38,354 bases of DNA from the NCBI GenBank assembly GCA_945885475.1, contig CAMCYR010000030.1, forward strand, positions 1-38,354, in the 5' to 3' direction. This stretch comes from Chitinophaga pinensis (lineage in GTDB: Bacteria > Bacteroidota > Bacteroidia > 2-12-FULL-35-15). Below the pieces are notes generated by a model, which did not search any database, was not told where the DNA came from, and was given only the letters and a program-made list of their open reading frames with translations. Of the stretch, positions 4,376 to 20,676 are shown one piece after another. A program made the translations under genes and the position numbers. Numbering within the stretch: the stretch's first letter is position 1; every line of letters begins with the position of its first letter.

Positions 4376-4455
4376 GTTATATTTTATTTGTTTTTATATT
4401 CGTCATTGCTTTGTTCTTTTGAATAACACATTTTTTTGTTTATTTTTTTAATAGT

Positions 4456-5712
4456 CTATTGTCTGCCGGTAACAATTTTTCCGCTAATGATCACTGTCTC
4501 AATTAAGTTGCTTCCAAATGAATATGGAATATACGCATAGCTCGGAATTTCTTTTGTGATAAATACATTTGCTTGTTTGCCAACAGCAATGCTTCCATGA
4601 GTTTTACTAAGATCCATTGCATACGCTGAATTTATTGTTGCTGCATTGATTGCTTCTTCCGGAGTCATTTTATATTGCAAACAACAAAGGGAAAGCATAA
4701 AGTTCATATTGCCACTCGGACTGCTCCCAGGGTTATAATCGCTTGCAACAGCCAGTGCTAAGCCTGCATCCATCATTTTGCGTGCAGGCGGAAATGGTAA
4801 GTTCAAAAAGAAAGCTGCACCCGGTAAAATGGTTGGCATTGTCTTCGAATTTCTTAATGCATCAATTTCTTTATCTCCAACAAATTCTAAATGATCAACA
4901 CTTAGCGCACCCACTTCAACTCCTGCTAATACTCCACCCGAATTACTTAATTGTTCAGCATGTACTTTGGGTGTCATACCGTGTTTCTTTCCAGCAGTGA
5001 GGATTTTAATAGCTTCTTCTTTTGTAAAATAATTTTGTTCACAAAAAATATCGCAATAATCTGCGAGTTGTTCTGCTTCAATTCTAGGCATCATTTCATT
5101 GATGATGATGTCGATATACGTTTGTTTATCATTTTTGTATTCGGAAGGAACAGCATGTGCACCAAGGAAAGTCGCTTTTATTGTTAGTGGTGAAATTGCT
5201 TTTAGCTTTTTAATGACACGCAGCATTTTTAATTCAGCTTCAATACTTAATCCATAGCCGCTCTTTATTTCAACCGCTCCTGTTCCTTGCAACATTATTT
5301 CATTCAAACGCTTTAAGGCACTTTCAATAAGTTCATCCTCTGTTGCGTCCGATAATTTTTTTGCGGAGTTGAGAATGCCTCCCCCACGTTCAAATATCTG
5401 TTCATAGGAAAGTCCGTTGATCCTGTCCACAAATTCTCCTTCACGGCTTCCAGCATAAACAATATGTGTATGGCTGTCGCAATAACAAGGCATCACAATT
5501 TTATCACTTGCATCTATTATTGTTAAATTGGTCCAATCTGAAATCCCTTCCCAGTCTTCCATTTTACCGAATCCCGCAATTTTATCATCTTCAATGGCAA
5601 GCCAGGCATCAGAAACAGAAGCGATATTTTTCATCTCAGCGCCTGTTACTTTAATGCGCGGAAGTTCCTCGGTTTGAACTAATTGTTTTATATTTTTAAT
5701 AAGAATCTTCAT
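4456..5712 (-). CDS. hutI: Imidazolonepropionase
   Basis: A 418-residue amidohydrolase-superfamily enzyme that hydrolyses 4-imidazolone-5-propanoate to N-formimidoyl-L-glutamate, the substrate of the next gene's product. The metal-binding HTH motif is at 81-83 (CDSHTHIVYAGSREGEF). Downstream are HAEQLSN with a predicted metal-ligand histidine, the SVDHLEF segment, and VASDYNPGSSP with the predicted metal-ligand aspartate. Length is typical for HutI (about 400-420). It is the first gene of a predicted two-gene hutI-ftcD unit, with a promoter-like sequence 20-48 bp upstream. The pathway is incomplete here: histidase and urocanase must be encoded elsewhere if histidine is used. Confidence 0.96.
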   Translation of the reverse strand: MKILIKNIKQLVQTEELPRIKVTGAEMKNIASVSDAWLAIEDDKIAGFGKMEDWEGISDWTNLTIIDASDKIVMPCYCDSHTHIVYAGSREGEFVDRINGLSYEQIFERGGGILNSAKKLSDATEDELIESALKRLNEIMLQGTGAVEIKSGYGLSIEAELKMLRVIKKLKAISPLTIKATFLGAHAVPSEYKNDKQTYIDIIINEMMPRIEAEQLADYCDIFCEQNYFTKEEAIKILTAGKKHGMTPKVHAEQLSNSGGVLAGVEVGALSVDHLEFVGDKEIDALRNSKTMPTILPGAAFFLNLPFPPARKMMDAGLALAVASDYNPGSSPSGNMNFMLSLCCLQYKMTPEEAINAATINSAYAMDLSKTHGSIAVGKQANVFITKEIPSYAYIPYSFGSNLIETVIISGKIVTGRQ

Positions 5713-13309: not shown

Positions 13310-13669
13310 TTATTCTATATCATCCATATGCAATATATGCATGATCCTGTGAACGATCGGAGCAAAAAAAACCGCTGTGATGCTCAAAAAAGCAAGGCCA
13401 CTGTAAAGCGCATAAAGTGAATCGAAAATTTTAGCTCCTGATGTGCGCATTTCCACAACAGGCCCCATTGCCGTCAATATCAAACAAGCCATATGAAAAC
13501 TGTCGAGCCAACCAAGGTTGGCGAAATAGTGATAACCTACTACTCCAAATCCAACGGACAGAATAATCAATACGATTGCAAAAATAGAAAAGCGTAACAT
13601 GCGAATAATAAATATTGAAAAGGATACTACTTTTTGTTTTCGATGCTCCAGTTTTAATTTTAGTTTCAC
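13310..13669 (-). CDS. Small two-helix ion-channel-like membrane protein
   Basis: A 119-residue protein with a basic N-terminus (1-15), membrane helix 1 at about 25-46, a re-entrant pore-helix-like stretch at about 54-68 (WLDSFHMACLILTAMGPV), helix 2 at about 82-105, and a His-rich tail (HRIMHILHMD, 107-116). The layout is that of a two-helix potassium-channel pore domain. The TVGYG selectivity filter is replaced by TAMGP, so potassium selectivity is doubtful. The sequence resembles conserved bacterial proteins sometimes labelled two-pore-domain channel family. The start codon overlaps the stop of the upstream hydrolase by 4 bp (ATGA), which suggests translational coupling. Function is unknown. 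Confidence 0.75.
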   Translation of the reverse strand: MKLKLKLEHRKQKVVSFSIFIIRMLRFSIFAIVLIILSVGFGVVGYHYFANLGWLDSFHMACLILTAMGPVVEMRTSGAKIFDSLYALYSGLAFLSITAVFFAPIVHRIMHILHMDDIE

Positions 13670-15672
13670 TGTTTTATGATTTTATAATTTTTTGAATCTT
13701 TGGTGCTGATAACATTAAGAATATAAATACTATTTTCATAGTTACTCAGATCCATGTCGATAATCTCCTCCCTTATTTTTTCAATATGAAGTAACAACTT
13801 ACCTTGTATATCAAATAAATTTACTGCTGTTATACTTTTGAATTCGGATCCTAATTTTATTTGTATGCTGTTGTTTGTAGGATTGGGATAAACCGAAGCA
13901 ACAGGAGCCGGAAAATTGAATGAAACTGAAGTGGTAAGAGGGCTTAGCCCGCTTAGCATCACGTCTGTAATATAAATGGATCCGGCAACCGTTTTGTTGT
14001 AGAGAAATTTCACTTTTTGAATTTGAGTCAAATCAACTCCTATAAAATCTGTAAGAGGAATTTTGATGCTGTTGAAACACACTTTCGGTAATTCAAATGG
14101 TTCTGTTCCGGGAGGATAATACATAACGTTTGTGTAGTTTTTTACTTGCAGACTGCTAATCGCTCCGGATACATCGATCAACTGGATTGTATAGTTAAAT
14201 GTTTGTCCCGATGTTGCTTCGGAAAAATCTACTGCTGCCCTGAACTGAAAGTTTTGATAGATCGTAAAGTTCTGATAAGAAACAGGAATTATATTCTGGT
14301 AGAAATCCGTTGCCCCGTCCCACCGCATTCCTAATTGTGGCATTCCTAATATACCGGATGTTCCGCTGTGAGGCTCTTTGTCATTCGAAAAACTTACGCT
14401 GCAATTAATTTCTGCTGCATCATCAGAACAGATATCGAATTTTAAAAGTCCACCAGAGGATACTGCTCCGCTCAATGTATTTGTCAGTTCAGAAGCTTCC
14501 ACTAAGTGCCGATTGATATCAAGGCGCTTGGATGCAGGTGCATGATAAGAAACAAAAATACCATTCGTATCCAATGTCGAAGATATAGGTGGCACAATAT
14601 CATCCGCTTCGAGTATAGGAGCAAAGGCTGTTTCGTTACCGATGTATAATCTGAAAAAAGCACTTGCATACGTCACTAATACTGCTTGCTGCTCTGAGGG
14701 AGTTAATCTTTTACTTTGTGTTCCGACTGTTCCGCAATGTATATCGTTGTTACCGTAATTGTCGTCCCAATCATCTGATGTTGCAGCAATATAAGAGCCT
14801 GGAGTCCATACTGTATTAAAGAAGTTGTGATTGGCACCCATCACTAAAACGGAATGCTTTGGTGATTCATCTGTTAGATCATTGTAACGGATATCGTCAT
14901 AAAAATGTACACCCTGCAAATCAGAAACATCTCCATCACAATAGGGTGCAATGTTCATTAGTGGCATTCCATTTAATATTTCGCGTGAAAAATCAACAGG
15001 TGCAAGTGGTAATACCGCTTTGATCCCGTAAGGATTTCCCAATGATCTGTTTAAAAGTGCATGAGCGACAACACCTTCACCACCGCGTGAATGCCCCATT
15101 GTCCCAATATTCTGAAGATCTAATTTTCCAATAAAAGTTGTTCCGAATGGCGTCCCTCCGACAGTATTCCATGTATTCCAAAGATCCAAATGATGCTGTA
15201 TGAGAGCTGCACGTGCAGGCATTCCCCGGTTCGTCAAACTATTATCATCGGCATTGATTGCATTTGCAGAGATTGAAATTACGATGTAACCGTGACTTGC
15301 CATTTGTTGTGCGAGGTAATCATAACCTTGAAAACTGGTGACAGATTGATAACCCGCAGCGCAGGGCCATGCCAATGCATCATTTGACGGATTGCTAGTT
15401 TGGTAGCAAGTTGTATGACGTCCGTGTAAAAAAACCAAAACAGGGAATGGTCCTGAACTTAACAATGTTGGATAATGAACCGAACCTCGAACTTCCATCG
15501 GATTCGGGAACGAGGGATCTGTAAATGCGAGATCTCCCAGATCATAAGAGGAGTAACTTACAGCGAATGTGCCGGGTAATCCTGGATCAGGCGTGGTTTG
15601 TGCAAAACCTGAAAATAGCTGGGTAACAAAAGCAACTACAATTAAGGATGCTCGTAGGTATTTATTTATCAT
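13666..15672 (-). CDS. Secreted alpha/beta-hydrolase (chlorophyllase/PET-hydrolase-like fold) with T9SS tail
   Basis: A 668-residue exported enzyme. The signal peptide ends near residue 24 (SGFAQ). The alpha/beta-hydrolase domain (about 35-350) has FPVLVFLHGRHTTC as the oxyanion region, GHSRGGEG with nucleophile Ser195, a likely acid at Asp246 or Asp248 in PYCDGDVSD, and His282 in GANHNFFNTVW. A beta-sandwich region follows (about 380-585), with features of a carbohydrate-binding-type module. A T9SS type A sorting domain closes the protein (about 595-668; VYPNPTNNSIQIKL, FDIQGKLL). The product is expected outside the cell and probably cleaves esters; the substrate is unknown. It is the middle gene of a three-gene run: 26 bp after the small secreted protein gene and overlapping the channel-like gene by 4 bp. 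Confidence 0.8.
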   Translation of the reverse strand: MINKYLRASLIVVAFVTQLFSGFAQTTPDPGLPGTFAVSYSSYDLGDLAFTDPSFPNPMEVRGSVHYPTLLSSGPFPVLVFLHGRHTTCYQTSNPSNDALAWPCAAGYQSVTSFQGYDYLAQQMASHGYIVISISANAINADDNSLTNRGMPARAALIQHHLDLWNTWNTVGGTPFGTTFIGKLDLQNIGTMGHSRGGEGVVAHALLNRSLGNPYGIKAVLPLAPVDFSREILNGMPLMNIAPYCDGDVSDLQGVHFYDDIRYNDLTDESPKHSVLVMGANHNFFNTVWTPGSYIAATSDDWDDNYGNNDIHCGTVGTQSKRLTPSEQQAVLVTYASAFFRLYIGNETAFAPILEADDIVPPISSTLDTNGIFVSYHAPASKRLDINRHLVEASELTNTLSGAVSSGGLLKFDICSDDAAEINCSVSFSNDKEPHSGTSGILGMPQLGMRWDGATDFYQNIIPVSYQNFTIYQNFQFRAAVDFSEATSGQTFNYTIQLIDVSGAISSLQVKNYTNVMYYPPGTEPFELPKVCFNSIKIPLTDFIGVDLTQIQKVKFLYNKTVAGSIYITDVMLSGLSPLTTSVSFNFPAPVASVYPNPTNNSIQIKLGSEFKSITAVNLFDIQGKLLLHIEKIREEIIDMDLSNYENSIYILNVISTKDSKNYKIIKQ

Positions 15673-15698
15673 TGGAAGGAGCGTTAACTTAAATGCGT

Positions 15699-16109
15699 TT
15701 AGTTTTCTGATAATTTTTTACTGAATTTGCCTAATGCCCAGCACGTTTTTGAATTTTTTCTGCAAAATTTTTCTGGGTCCTCAGTACTTGCGGGTGTTTT
15801 TTTAAACTTCTTTCCGTAACTCATCCAGATGTAATCACCTTCGTTAAGGCTGTTGAATTCATCAGTTGAAATATAAAAAACAATTGCTCCTCTACCATTC
15901 ATATTGAGTTGTTTACTCAGCGAGAAAGACTGTTTCCCAATATGTAAAATGTGAATATTCCCGCCCACATAAAATGGTTTTTCGCCGGTAATAGTTAATT
16001 CGAATCGTTGTCCGTTTTGTATGATTTTTGAAACAACTGCTGTTGATTGTGCAAAAGAAAAATAGTAAAAGAGGATGTTCAGAATAAGTAGCAGGGATAT
16101 TTTTTTCAT
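15699..16109 (-). CDS. Small exported protein of unknown function
   Basis: A 136-residue protein with a clear signal peptide (1-20, MKKISLLLILNILFYYFSFA then Q). The mature part is about 115 residues, basic and probably beta-rich in its first half (VSKIIQNGQRFELTITG, YVGGNIHILHIG). It has two cysteines near the end (KFCRKNSKTCWALG) that could form a disulfide. No lipobox or T9SS sorting domain is visible, so it is predicted to be periplasmic. I do not recognise a family. It is the first gene of the run with the secreted hydrolase and the channel-like protein, just after the pruA terminator. Confidence 0.65.
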   Translation of the reverse strand: MKKISLLLILNILFYYFSFAQSTAVVSKIIQNGQRFELTITGEKPFYVGGNIHILHIGKQSFSLSKQLNMNGRGAIVFYISTDEFNSLNEGDYIWMSYGKKFKKTPASTEDPEKFCRKNSKTCWALGKFSKKLSEN

Positions 16110-16177
16110 AGTAGTTTAATAAATCCAACATTAGAAGTCCGTTTGGATACGTCTAAAGTACAGAATATATTTTAATC

Positions 16178-16220
16178 AAAAAAAATACCTCTAATCCATT
16201 TTACTAATGGAAACAGAGGC
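16178..16220 (-). terminator. Rho-independent terminator of pruA
   Basis: Read on the minus strand, GCCTCT...TCCATT pairs with AATGGA...AGAGG. The outer stem is 16219-16215 with 16192-16188, an internal loop separates it from the inner stem 16210-16206 with 16200-16196, and the loop is 5 bases. A run of eight T follows after TA (16185-16178). It sits 31 bp after the pruA stop and separates pruA from the downstream secreted-hydrolase unit. Confidence 0.75.
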
Positions 16221-16250
16221 ATTTCTTAAATGCTTATTGTAAAATTGTTA

Positions 16251-18053: not shown

Positions 18054-20096
18054 TTAGTAGTTTTTTAGATCCGGCAACTTATCCGAATTAGAAAGAATGA
18101 TTTTGTCGATTAAAAGACCATCAGTGAGTGAAAGTATGCGAATACTTTCAGAAAGTTCTGCTTGTTGTTTTAGTTCAAACGGGAATTTGATCCATTCCCA
18201 ATTGTCTGTTTTTTTTGAAGAAATTAAATATTCGCTTCCTAGAATGGTTGTATTCAAACGAATCTGATTAGTACATTTTGCATAGATCATCAAAACCAGA
18301 TTGTTTCCTAACTGTTCGGCATCTCTTTTAGAAAAGCTATATTCCGTCCATTCTTTTTGATCGAGTTGGATGTAAGATTCAGCAAGTGAAAAATCAATTG
18401 TTGAATTTGATTTTAAATAAACAGAATGGATGAGTTTGTTTTGTTCGGATGATGCATTATCAAACACTTCAGCTTCGCAAATCCATTCTTTTCTCCAGCG
18501 CTCCGGGTGTTCGTATTGATGCCAGCGGTCGAGTTGGAAGAACAATGCCGGTTCAACACTTTTATCGTATACATAAACACTTCCTTGTCTACGGGCATTT
18601 ATTTTAATATTATCACCGGCAACAGTTAATTCAATATTCTTTTCTAAAGGAAATTTTTCATTATTTGATGACGGTTGAACAGTTGTTGCAATGACATATT
18701 TTTCTTTCGTATCCTGTTTCCGAACAGCAACCAAGACGTCTTTTTCTTTTGTAGGGAATGTGACAATAGGTTCTTTTTTTGCATCGAATAAAACATTTCC
18801 ATTAAAAAAAACATCAGAATAATGTGTGGAAACGGCTTGCGCATATGCAGGCATTGCTGCTTGCCAGACATAATTTTCAGGTTTAGAGAAAGGCTTTTTA
18901 AGGTTAAAATAACCGGCATAAAAAAATTCGGCACCAACAACGGATAAACATTTCAGAAGTCCGAGCCATTGTGCAGGACGCATATCCCTTTCAGGATTAA
19001 ATGCCCATCCAGCTGCGACAAAAGGTGAGAAAAAACGATCACCACTTTTTATTTCAATTTTTCTTCCGTCATTGATCCATTTCCAACCGTGCCATGCGCC
19101 TTTCCATGTTTTCCAATTGTCGGGAGTACGCGGATAAAAATCGGGGGTAGAGTAGTAGTTGCCTTTTATTTTAGAGCAGGATGCTTTACTCGTTTGCCAA
19201 TCGAATCGGTTGATCGGACCGCCTTCAACATTGTAAATAGTGAACACGGTGTTTTTTAATTCCGGCATTTTCATAAATTGATCCGAATAGAGTTTCCGCA
19301 TATTCTTTTTTCTGTTTGCAGCATAAATATTCCAATCGTTGATGCCTGATCTATTTTTATCGGCAATCATATCTTTGTCTTGTGAAATACTTCCTATGTG
19401 ATGAGCCCCAGGAGGTTCCTCCCCATTTTCATTTATGATGTTGATAGGCCTGGTAAGGTGCGATAAAATATTGCTGATGCATATTTTTTGCAACTGTCCA
19501 TCCTTTATAAAAATAGAATCAGGTGCAGCAAAATTTAAAATTCTTTTTATTACGTTTCCCGAAGCATCTTTTATATAGAAAGAATCAGGATAATCCTTTT
19601 TTAAAATCCGGGGTGTTTTGTCTGAATATCCCATCTTTGAAGGAGCCAGCTGCATCCAGAATGTAGTTAAAGCTAATGGGATTTGTGGGTATTTATTTGC
19701 CAGATCAATATAAGCCCTGAATATTCCATTTGGATTGTTATAACTATCGGAACTTGTTGCCATTCCGGAATTTTGAATTGTCAGAAAATAATTCCAATGC
19801 AGTATTAACTCTTCCTGGATCTTCATTGCATCCTTGATCGCATTTTGTTCTTTCACTTCCTTTTGACCACCACCTGCCATGTATCTTGAATTCATCCAGT
19901 TAAATAAGCGGATAAAGGAATTGTTTGCCACGTATCTTGGTGATGGATAAGATTGCAGTTGCTGTATGGCTGTTGAATGAACATTCGGGTAACCCACTTG
20001 AAATTCAAGTGTGTCAATTGCAGGAGTTACTTCTTGAGAAAAAGCAAAGGTTATAAGAACAATGAAGGCAAAAAGGGAGCTAATTATTTTTTTCAT
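18054..20096 (-). CDS. Exported protein of unknown function, glycoside-hydrolase-like
   Basis: I do not recognise this family. The chosen ATG at 20096 gives 680 residues beginning with a good signal peptide (MKKIISSLFAFIVLITFAFSQ). A longer frame to 20117 would add seven residues in front of the signal peptide and overlap the upstream stop, so it is less likely. The mature protein is rich in Trp, Tyr, Phe and Asn, as in secreted carbohydrate-active enzymes. Segments such as LALTTFWMQLAP and RFFSPFVAAGWAFNPERDMR suggest a TIM-barrel-like fold over about 70-470. The last 120 residues look like a beta-sandwich of binding-module type. No catalytic acid pair can be named with confidence. It follows the 188-residue gene by 13 bp. 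Confidence 0.7.
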   Translation of the reverse strand: MKKIISSLFAFIVLITFAFSQEVTPAIDTLEFQVGYPNVHSTAIQQLQSYPSPRYVANNSFIRLFNWMNSRYMAGGGQKEVKEQNAIKDAMKIQEELILHWNYFLTIQNSGMATSSDSYNNPNGIFRAYIDLANKYPQIPLALTTFWMQLAPSKMGYSDKTPRILKKDYPDSFYIKDASGNVIKRILNFAAPDSIFIKDGQLQKICISNILSHLTRPINIINENGEEPPGAHHIGSISQDKDMIADKNRSGINDWNIYAANRKKNMRKLYSDQFMKMPELKNTVFTIYNVEGGPINRFDWQTSKASCSKIKGNYYSTPDFYPRTPDNWKTWKGAWHGWKWINDGRKIEIKSGDRFFSPFVAAGWAFNPERDMRPAQWLGLLKCLSVVGAEFFYAGYFNLKKPFSKPENYVWQAAMPAYAQAVSTHYSDVFFNGNVLFDAKKEPIVTFPTKEKDVLVAVRKQDTKEKYVIATTVQPSSNNEKFPLEKNIELTVAGDNIKINARRQGSVYVYDKSVEPALFFQLDRWHQYEHPERWRKEWICEAEVFDNASSEQNKLIHSVYLKSNSTIDFSLAESYIQLDQKEWTEYSFSKRDAEQLGNNLVLMIYAKCTNQIRLNTTILGSEYLISSKKTDNWEWIKFPFELKQQAELSESIRILSLTDGLLIDKIILSNSDKLPDLKNY

Positions 20097-20109
20097 AGCA
20101 GGAGACTGA

Positions 20110-20676
20110 TTATCCAATTCGTTTTTGAACTAGCTGTTCTACTTTTTCAAATAGTTGTGATGGAGTGGAAGTGCGCCAACCGATATCGTTCAGTTGACCT
20201 CCTGATACAATATAATAATCGATATTTGCCTTTTGAAACTCCTCCAGCACATGTTTTCTGAAATTAAGAAAAGCAATCCAACCATCTTCAATTTCATCAA
20301 ACCACTCTTCATAATAACAGTCATCTGAAGCATGAAAATTTAGAACATTTTCACCAATCAGAATAAATTTATTTACACCATATTGCATAATCAATTCGAT
20401 GATATCTCTTTTCAGAAGCATGATATCATTGTTGATTGCGTCATTCCATTCACCAATAAGTTCGATGATTGTAAAATTCTGATCATAATCCACGCACAGT
20501 ATCTTGATATACAAAGTCGGGGAATCAATATCATCCCATTGCGGATGTATCAGATAATTATAAATAACATTGGTATACTCAAACTCACTGTATTCGCGTC
20601 CGTAAAATGGAGATTGATCATCTTCAGACGCGATATAGATATGTCGCCAATTATAAAATGGTTCTATGTCTTGCAT
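20110..20676 (-). CDS. Conserved acidic cytosolic protein of unknown function
   Basis: A 188-residue soluble protein, strongly acidic and aromatic (IEPFYNWRHIYIASEDDQSP at 4-23; CYYEEWFDEIEDGWIAFLNF in the middle). There is no signal peptide or membrane segment. The pattern of alternating beta strands (LYIKILCVDY, NFTIIELIGEW, KFILIGENVLNF, YYIVSGG) and helices suggests a Rossmann-like alpha/beta fold. I do not recognise a function. It is separated by 50 bp from murQ upstream and 13 bp from the exported protein gene downstream, so the three may be cotranscribed. Confidence 0.65.
   Translation of the reverse strand: MQDIEPFYNWRHIYIASEDDQSPFYGREYSEFEYTNVIYNYLIHPQWDDIDSPTLYIKILCVDYDQNFTIIELIGEWNDAINNDIMLLKRDIIELIMQYGVNKFILIGENVLNFHASDDCYYEEWFDEIEDGWIAFLNFRKHVLEEFQKANIDYYIVSGGQLNDIGWRTSTPSQLFEKVEQLVQKRIG

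Follow-up and report, generated by a model that had tools for sequence, protein, structure and literature searches.

The window analysed here, a stretch of 38,354 nucleotides of Chitinophaga pinensis DNA (contig CAMCYR010000030.1), contains three open reading frames that follow pruA on the minus strand, at the coordinates given to them in a first-pass annotation. From upstream to downstream, the features of the locus are:

16180–16227, minus strand: terminator-like hairpin and U run 3' of pruA, recognized from folding against shuffles.
15699–16109, minus strand: small exported protein (136 aa), the putative partner of the hydrolase, always just upstream of it in the Bacteroidota copies found.
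About 16047–16109, minus strand: predicted signal peptide of the small protein, whose mature part would be 115 aa.
13666–15672, minus strand: T9SS-exported alpha/beta-hydrolase (668 aa), placed by sequence in the protein-asparaginase (9XG1) family (9XG1 match, PF12740, Por_Secre_tail).
15088–15090, minus strand: codon of the putative nucleophile Ser195 (GHSRGG), invariant in a 10-sequence alignment that includes 9XG1.
14929–14937, minus strand: codons of Asp246 and Asp248 (PYCDGD), one of which is the putative catalytic acid, invariant in the same alignment.
14827–14829, minus strand: codon of the putative catalytic His282 (MGANHNF), likewise invariant there.
13675–13893, minus strand: T9SS type A C-terminal sorting domain (hydrolase residues 594–666), from Pfam and NCBIfam profile matches.
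13310–13669, minus strand: two-TM pore-domain-like protein without a selectivity filter (119 aa, GTG start), here called the 2TM protein; its gene is separable from the other two.

The small gene and the hydrolase gene are separated by 26 bp, as had been described, and the hydrolase and 2TM genes do overlap by 4 bp, but the shared sequence is GTGA rather than the ATGA first reported, the start codon of the 2TM gene being GTG. The annotated strong terminator that cuts off pruA was also borne out: the hairpin and its U run lie in a region with z = -3.6, and none of 200 shuffles was equally stable. Just past this terminator, and upstream of the small gene, a promoter-like pair of the Bacteroidota type can be picked out by eye (TTTG-N16-TACTTTAG, minus strand, window positions 16153–16180), with one mismatch to TAnnTTTG. 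A gene for a 687-aa exported protein with no Pfam match (18054–20117) adjoins pruA in the window and in genome G035; none was detected at the matching place in G003, G031, G033, G027, G030 or G016.

How far do the three genes belong together? Among 36 genomes of the window's genus, the small gene lies directly upstream of the hydrolase gene in all seven that carry a hydrolase. Across 84,980 species genomes, a scan for the hydrolase turned up 80 loci, and in every one of those from Bacteroidota (L055–L075 and L077, more than 15 of them outside the genus) the small gene again stands directly upstream, even in L074, where it is too diverged for tblastn. The gap between the two genes is mostly 16–55 bp, and the outer neighbours of the pair vary by lineage. 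Apart from one remnant, the small gene was not found without the hydrolase: its profile had no match in 344 other Bacteroidota genomes, and an hmmsearch with it against the ORFs at these 80 loci recovered its own family only. A profile search for the full-length hydrolase found none in 394 other Bacteroidota genomes. Up to five genomes of the genus show the order pruA, small gene, hydrolase, 2TM gene, ompA, so this arrangement is not due to chance. The locus is a conserved two-gene pair, the small gene and the hydrolase gene, with the 2TM gene as a neighbour.

The pair (13666–16109) evolves much faster than its flanks, with about 60–78% identity between sister genomes, compared with about 94–97% for pruA.

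The description of the 2TM product as a filterless, two-helix, channel-like protein has stood up well. It has two hydrophobic segments and a match to pore-domain profiles; the profile of its family matches the NaK channel (E 5e-6), and the Pfam Ion_trans_2 match falls below the cut-off. According to the profile match, it shares with the NaK and Ion_trans_2 two-TM cation channels a pair of TM segments around a pore-loop region, but where these channels carry the TVGYG filter, which is absent here, the 2TM family has MGP, invariant in 40 sequences. A lysine and a C-terminal H-R-x-x-H are nearly invariant. The family is widespread across Bacteroidota, commonly in genomes without the hydrolase, and apparently has no name in Pfam or NCBIfam (neither NCBIfam nor PHROGs supplied a usable name for the 2TM protein or the small protein).

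The first-pass annotation had treated all three genes as a unit and coupled the hydrolase to the pore, which might pass a product or sense a change in pH or charge. Such cooperation would accord with the 4-bp overlap in the window and with the near-abutting of the two genes in G003, G009 and G035, and it would be tempting to pair an ammonia-releasing enzyme with the pore-like protein beside it. The 2TM gene, however, is beside the hydrolase only in the window's genus (G000, G003, G009, G033 and G035), with about 120 bp between them in G033, and no 2TM gene was found within 5 kb of a hydrolase outside the genus, wherever the contig reaches that far. G030 has an intact pair but no 2TM gene beside it, and four genomes (G031, G027, G022 and G029) carry the 2TM gene but no hydrolase. 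The nearest relative, G031, whose pruA is 97.6% identical, has neither the small gene nor the hydrolase, and its pruA is followed by the 2TM gene; in G027 (L193, 8663–9229), an in-frame deletion has run the first part of the small gene directly into the end of the hydrolase tail, of which the last codons remain (..YILNVVSTKDATNYKIVKQ*), and has left the 2TM gene intact, from which it follows that an ancestor of G027 had all three genes. (In G016, the contig ends within the hydrolase.) The 2TM gene, which G031 and G027 have kept although they lost the hydrolase, is thus separable from the pair in both directions. It belongs to an independent pore-like family, probably lies outside the functional pair and is its neighbour in this genus only, and we think it very unlikely that a pore works with the surface hydrolase in a three-gene unit. 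The side-by-side comparison with other Bacteroidota, which the annotation had proposed with the proviso that families usually found apart would count against the unit, therefore divides the three genes: the small gene and the hydrolase are adjacent in every Bacteroidota copy found, whereas the 2TM gene usually lies apart. What had looked like the most original grouping in the window is, as regards hydrolase and pore, a local neighbourhood, and the unusual link is the one between hydrolase and small protein.

The hydrolase had been taken for a T9SS-secreted ester hydrolase of the alpha/beta type. Secretion and fold both hold. Its C-terminus matches PF18962 (Por_Secre_tail, 8.3e-11) and TIGR04183 (1.5e-9), which identify a T9SS type A sorting domain, and its N-terminus has a signal-like stretch (judged by eye), the two together being the criteria for T9SS type A cargo. 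The ester reading fares less well. The best match among solved structures is PDB 9XG1, a protein of the actinobacterial type (E 5.4e-88), named 'Protein-asparaginase' by its depositors (literature searches for protein-asparaginase found no paper describing 9XG1). Residues 26–574 of the hydrolase align to chain residues 128–666 of 9XG1, that is, to the catalytic part and the beta domain that follows it; within the former, 45% of 323 aligned residues are identical. The Ser, Asp and His motifs (GHSRGG, PYCDGD and GANHNF) and several Cys residues are common to the hydrolase, to 9XG1 and to homologues from Bacteroidota, Acidobacteria and actinobacteria. Since its nearest solved relative bears the name protein-asparaginase, 'ester hydrolase' is no longer the best guess; the sequence places the enzyme with the protein-asparaginase kind, a placement that is not meant as a claim about activity. 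The two proteins also differ in architecture: 9XG1 has a fused N-terminal domain and a C-terminal part, both of which are lacking from the window hydrolase, which has the T9SS tail instead. The mature hydrolase begins at the catalytic part, with no beta domain fused at its N-terminus; such a domain is present in 9XG1 and in most actinobacterial homologues but need not define the family.

There remains a case for a promiscuous or polyester-type surface esterase, akin to PETases and cutinases, with the small protein as an accessory domain that binds the substrate in the manner of a carbohydrate- or polymer-binding module. The Pfam PETase family (PF12740) matches the hydrolase at 5e-10, with 39.7 bits against a gathering score of 28; the two share the alpha/beta-hydrolase superfamily, and Bacteroidetes, some of whose PETases belong to this PET hydrolase/cutinase family, are known to include PET-active esterases (PMC8767016). 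Among solved structures, though, PET hydrolases come next after 9XG1 with E values of only about 1e-7 to 5e-7; the match to 9XG1 is far stronger and extends through the following beta domain, an element which, like the conserved partner gene, sets the window hydrolase apart from the PET hydrolases. The small protein, too, bears on this alternative. Its predicted beta-sandwich weakly resembles the folds of starch- and glycogen-binding modules, but only at the level of a generic Ig-like sandwich, and with no T9SS tail it would not be expected at the surface together with the enzyme. On balance, an esterase with a binding module seems to us unlikely.

What, then, might the small protein be? It was correctly recognized as exported, since it begins with a signal-peptide-like stretch. 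Its AlphaFold2 model is a beta-sandwich (pLDDT 86), for which Foldseek and VIA-align 2 returned generic Ig-like or CBM-like sandwiches, none of them significant; searches of solved structures with its sequence gave chance matches only. A more specific suggestion comes from relatives of the hydrolase. In 9XG1 and in most actinobacterial homologues, an extra domain precedes the catalytic part (L084, for one, seems to lack it), and in Acidobacteria a separate exported gene lies just upstream of the hydrolase in all four cases (one in L076 and three in G507). Comparison of the Acidobacterial partner profile with the actinobacterial N-domain by hhalign (Prob 95.9, P 5.3e-9) makes their homology well supported at the sequence level. 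The Acidobacterial partner also matches the Bacteroidota small-protein profile, but weakly (P 0.0012 over 62 columns, equalled by one of 300 column-shuffled controls), and when the Bacteroidota small protein and the actinobacterial N-domain were compared directly by hhalign, the match was not significant (P 0.34–0.68).

Two further observations concern the arrangement of such genes elsewhere. Each of the three Acidobacterial hydrolase copies in G507 (L186, L187) has its own partner gene, and two of the pairs are in tandem. In Kutzneria viridogrisea (L085), a hydrolase without a fused N-domain is accompanied by a separate upstream ORF (4429–4899) with a lipobox-like LLSAC, which may be the N-domain in the form of a lipoprotein; as a bridge, this ORF, which hhalign matches to the actinobacterial domain with P 0.007, is suggestive only.

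Structural models bring the Bacteroidota small protein closer to the N-domain. The AlphaFold2 model of the actinobacterial N-domain (pLDDT 89, from an input alignment that included four Acidobacterial rows) has the strand order and spacing of the small-protein model, both running from two strands through a loop of about 10 residues to three or four further strands, then a short helix and one more strand. When the two are aligned in register, 72% of secondary-structure states agree, compared with at most 66% for shifted versions, and the alignment is unchanged when secondary-structure scoring is turned off. Foldseek found no significant match for either model, and 9XG1 was absent among the matches listed. 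Because the direct sequence comparison is not significant, the case for homology depends on the Acidobacterial bridge, on gene position and on the topology of the models; taken together, these make it quite probable, although not proven, that the Bacteroidota small protein is the N-domain encoded as a separate gene, so that what is fused in 9XG1 would here be a distinct upstream gene. The small protein might instead have nothing to do with the N-domain and be a lineage-specific inhibitor, comparable to an immunity protein, that guards the cell from its own hydrolase. Its gene is always paired with that of the enzyme, its product has no surface-export tail, and the non-significant direct profile comparison would be as expected; but such an origin would leave aside the Acidobacterial bridge, the identical position and the shared strand order, and we consider it rather improbable.

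The N-domain interpretation leads to a model of the pair in operation, in which a small Sec-exported beta-sandwich protein, the counterpart of the N-domain, serves a T9SS-exported hydrolase of the protein-asparaginase family, with the 2TM gene a neighbour; we give this model an even chance of being right. The partner would be produced before the hydrolase and be exported into the periplasm, where, having a signal peptide and no T9SS tail, it is expected to stay. There it would bind the hydrolase as a fused domain would (the fusion in actinobacteria suggests physical contact between the two), either assisting its folding or keeping it inactive as long as it is inside the cell. As the sole carrier of a T9SS tail, the hydrolase would then be moved to the cell surface, to act on amide bonds of external proteins, possibly those of asparagine side-chains. 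A substrate-binding role for the partner is less likely, because it is not predicted to reach the surface, and a folding helper, or an inhibitor shielding the cell's own proteins until export, may fit it best. A partial parallel, drawn from published description, is the protein-glutaminase of Chryseobacterium, a Bacteroidota enzyme that is secreted, deamidates proteins and comes with an additional exported domain about as large; it is made with a signal peptide and a 114-aa pro-sequence ahead of the mature enzyme (PMC6132073); there the extra segment is in the same polypeptide, whereas at the present locus it would be a separate protein. At its most far-reaching, the model would have a dedicated periplasmic partner, the N-domain acting in trans, keep a protein-deamidating enzyme destined for the surface silent or foldable until export, with the leaving behind of the partner in the periplasm as the activation step. 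This last extension is possible but doubtful.

The attractive pairing of hydrolase and pore is, then, a matter of one genus, and the 2TM proteins make up a conserved Bacteroidota family worth study in its own right. If our interpretation of the pair is right, the protein-asparaginase family would extend to surface enzymes of Bacteroidota, and one and the same domain would be part of the enzyme chain in Actinobacteria and have a gene of its own in Acidobacteria and Bacteroidota. It would also provide an example of T9SS cargo with a cargo-specific partner, through which the inactivity of secreted enzymes before T9SS export would become directly testable.
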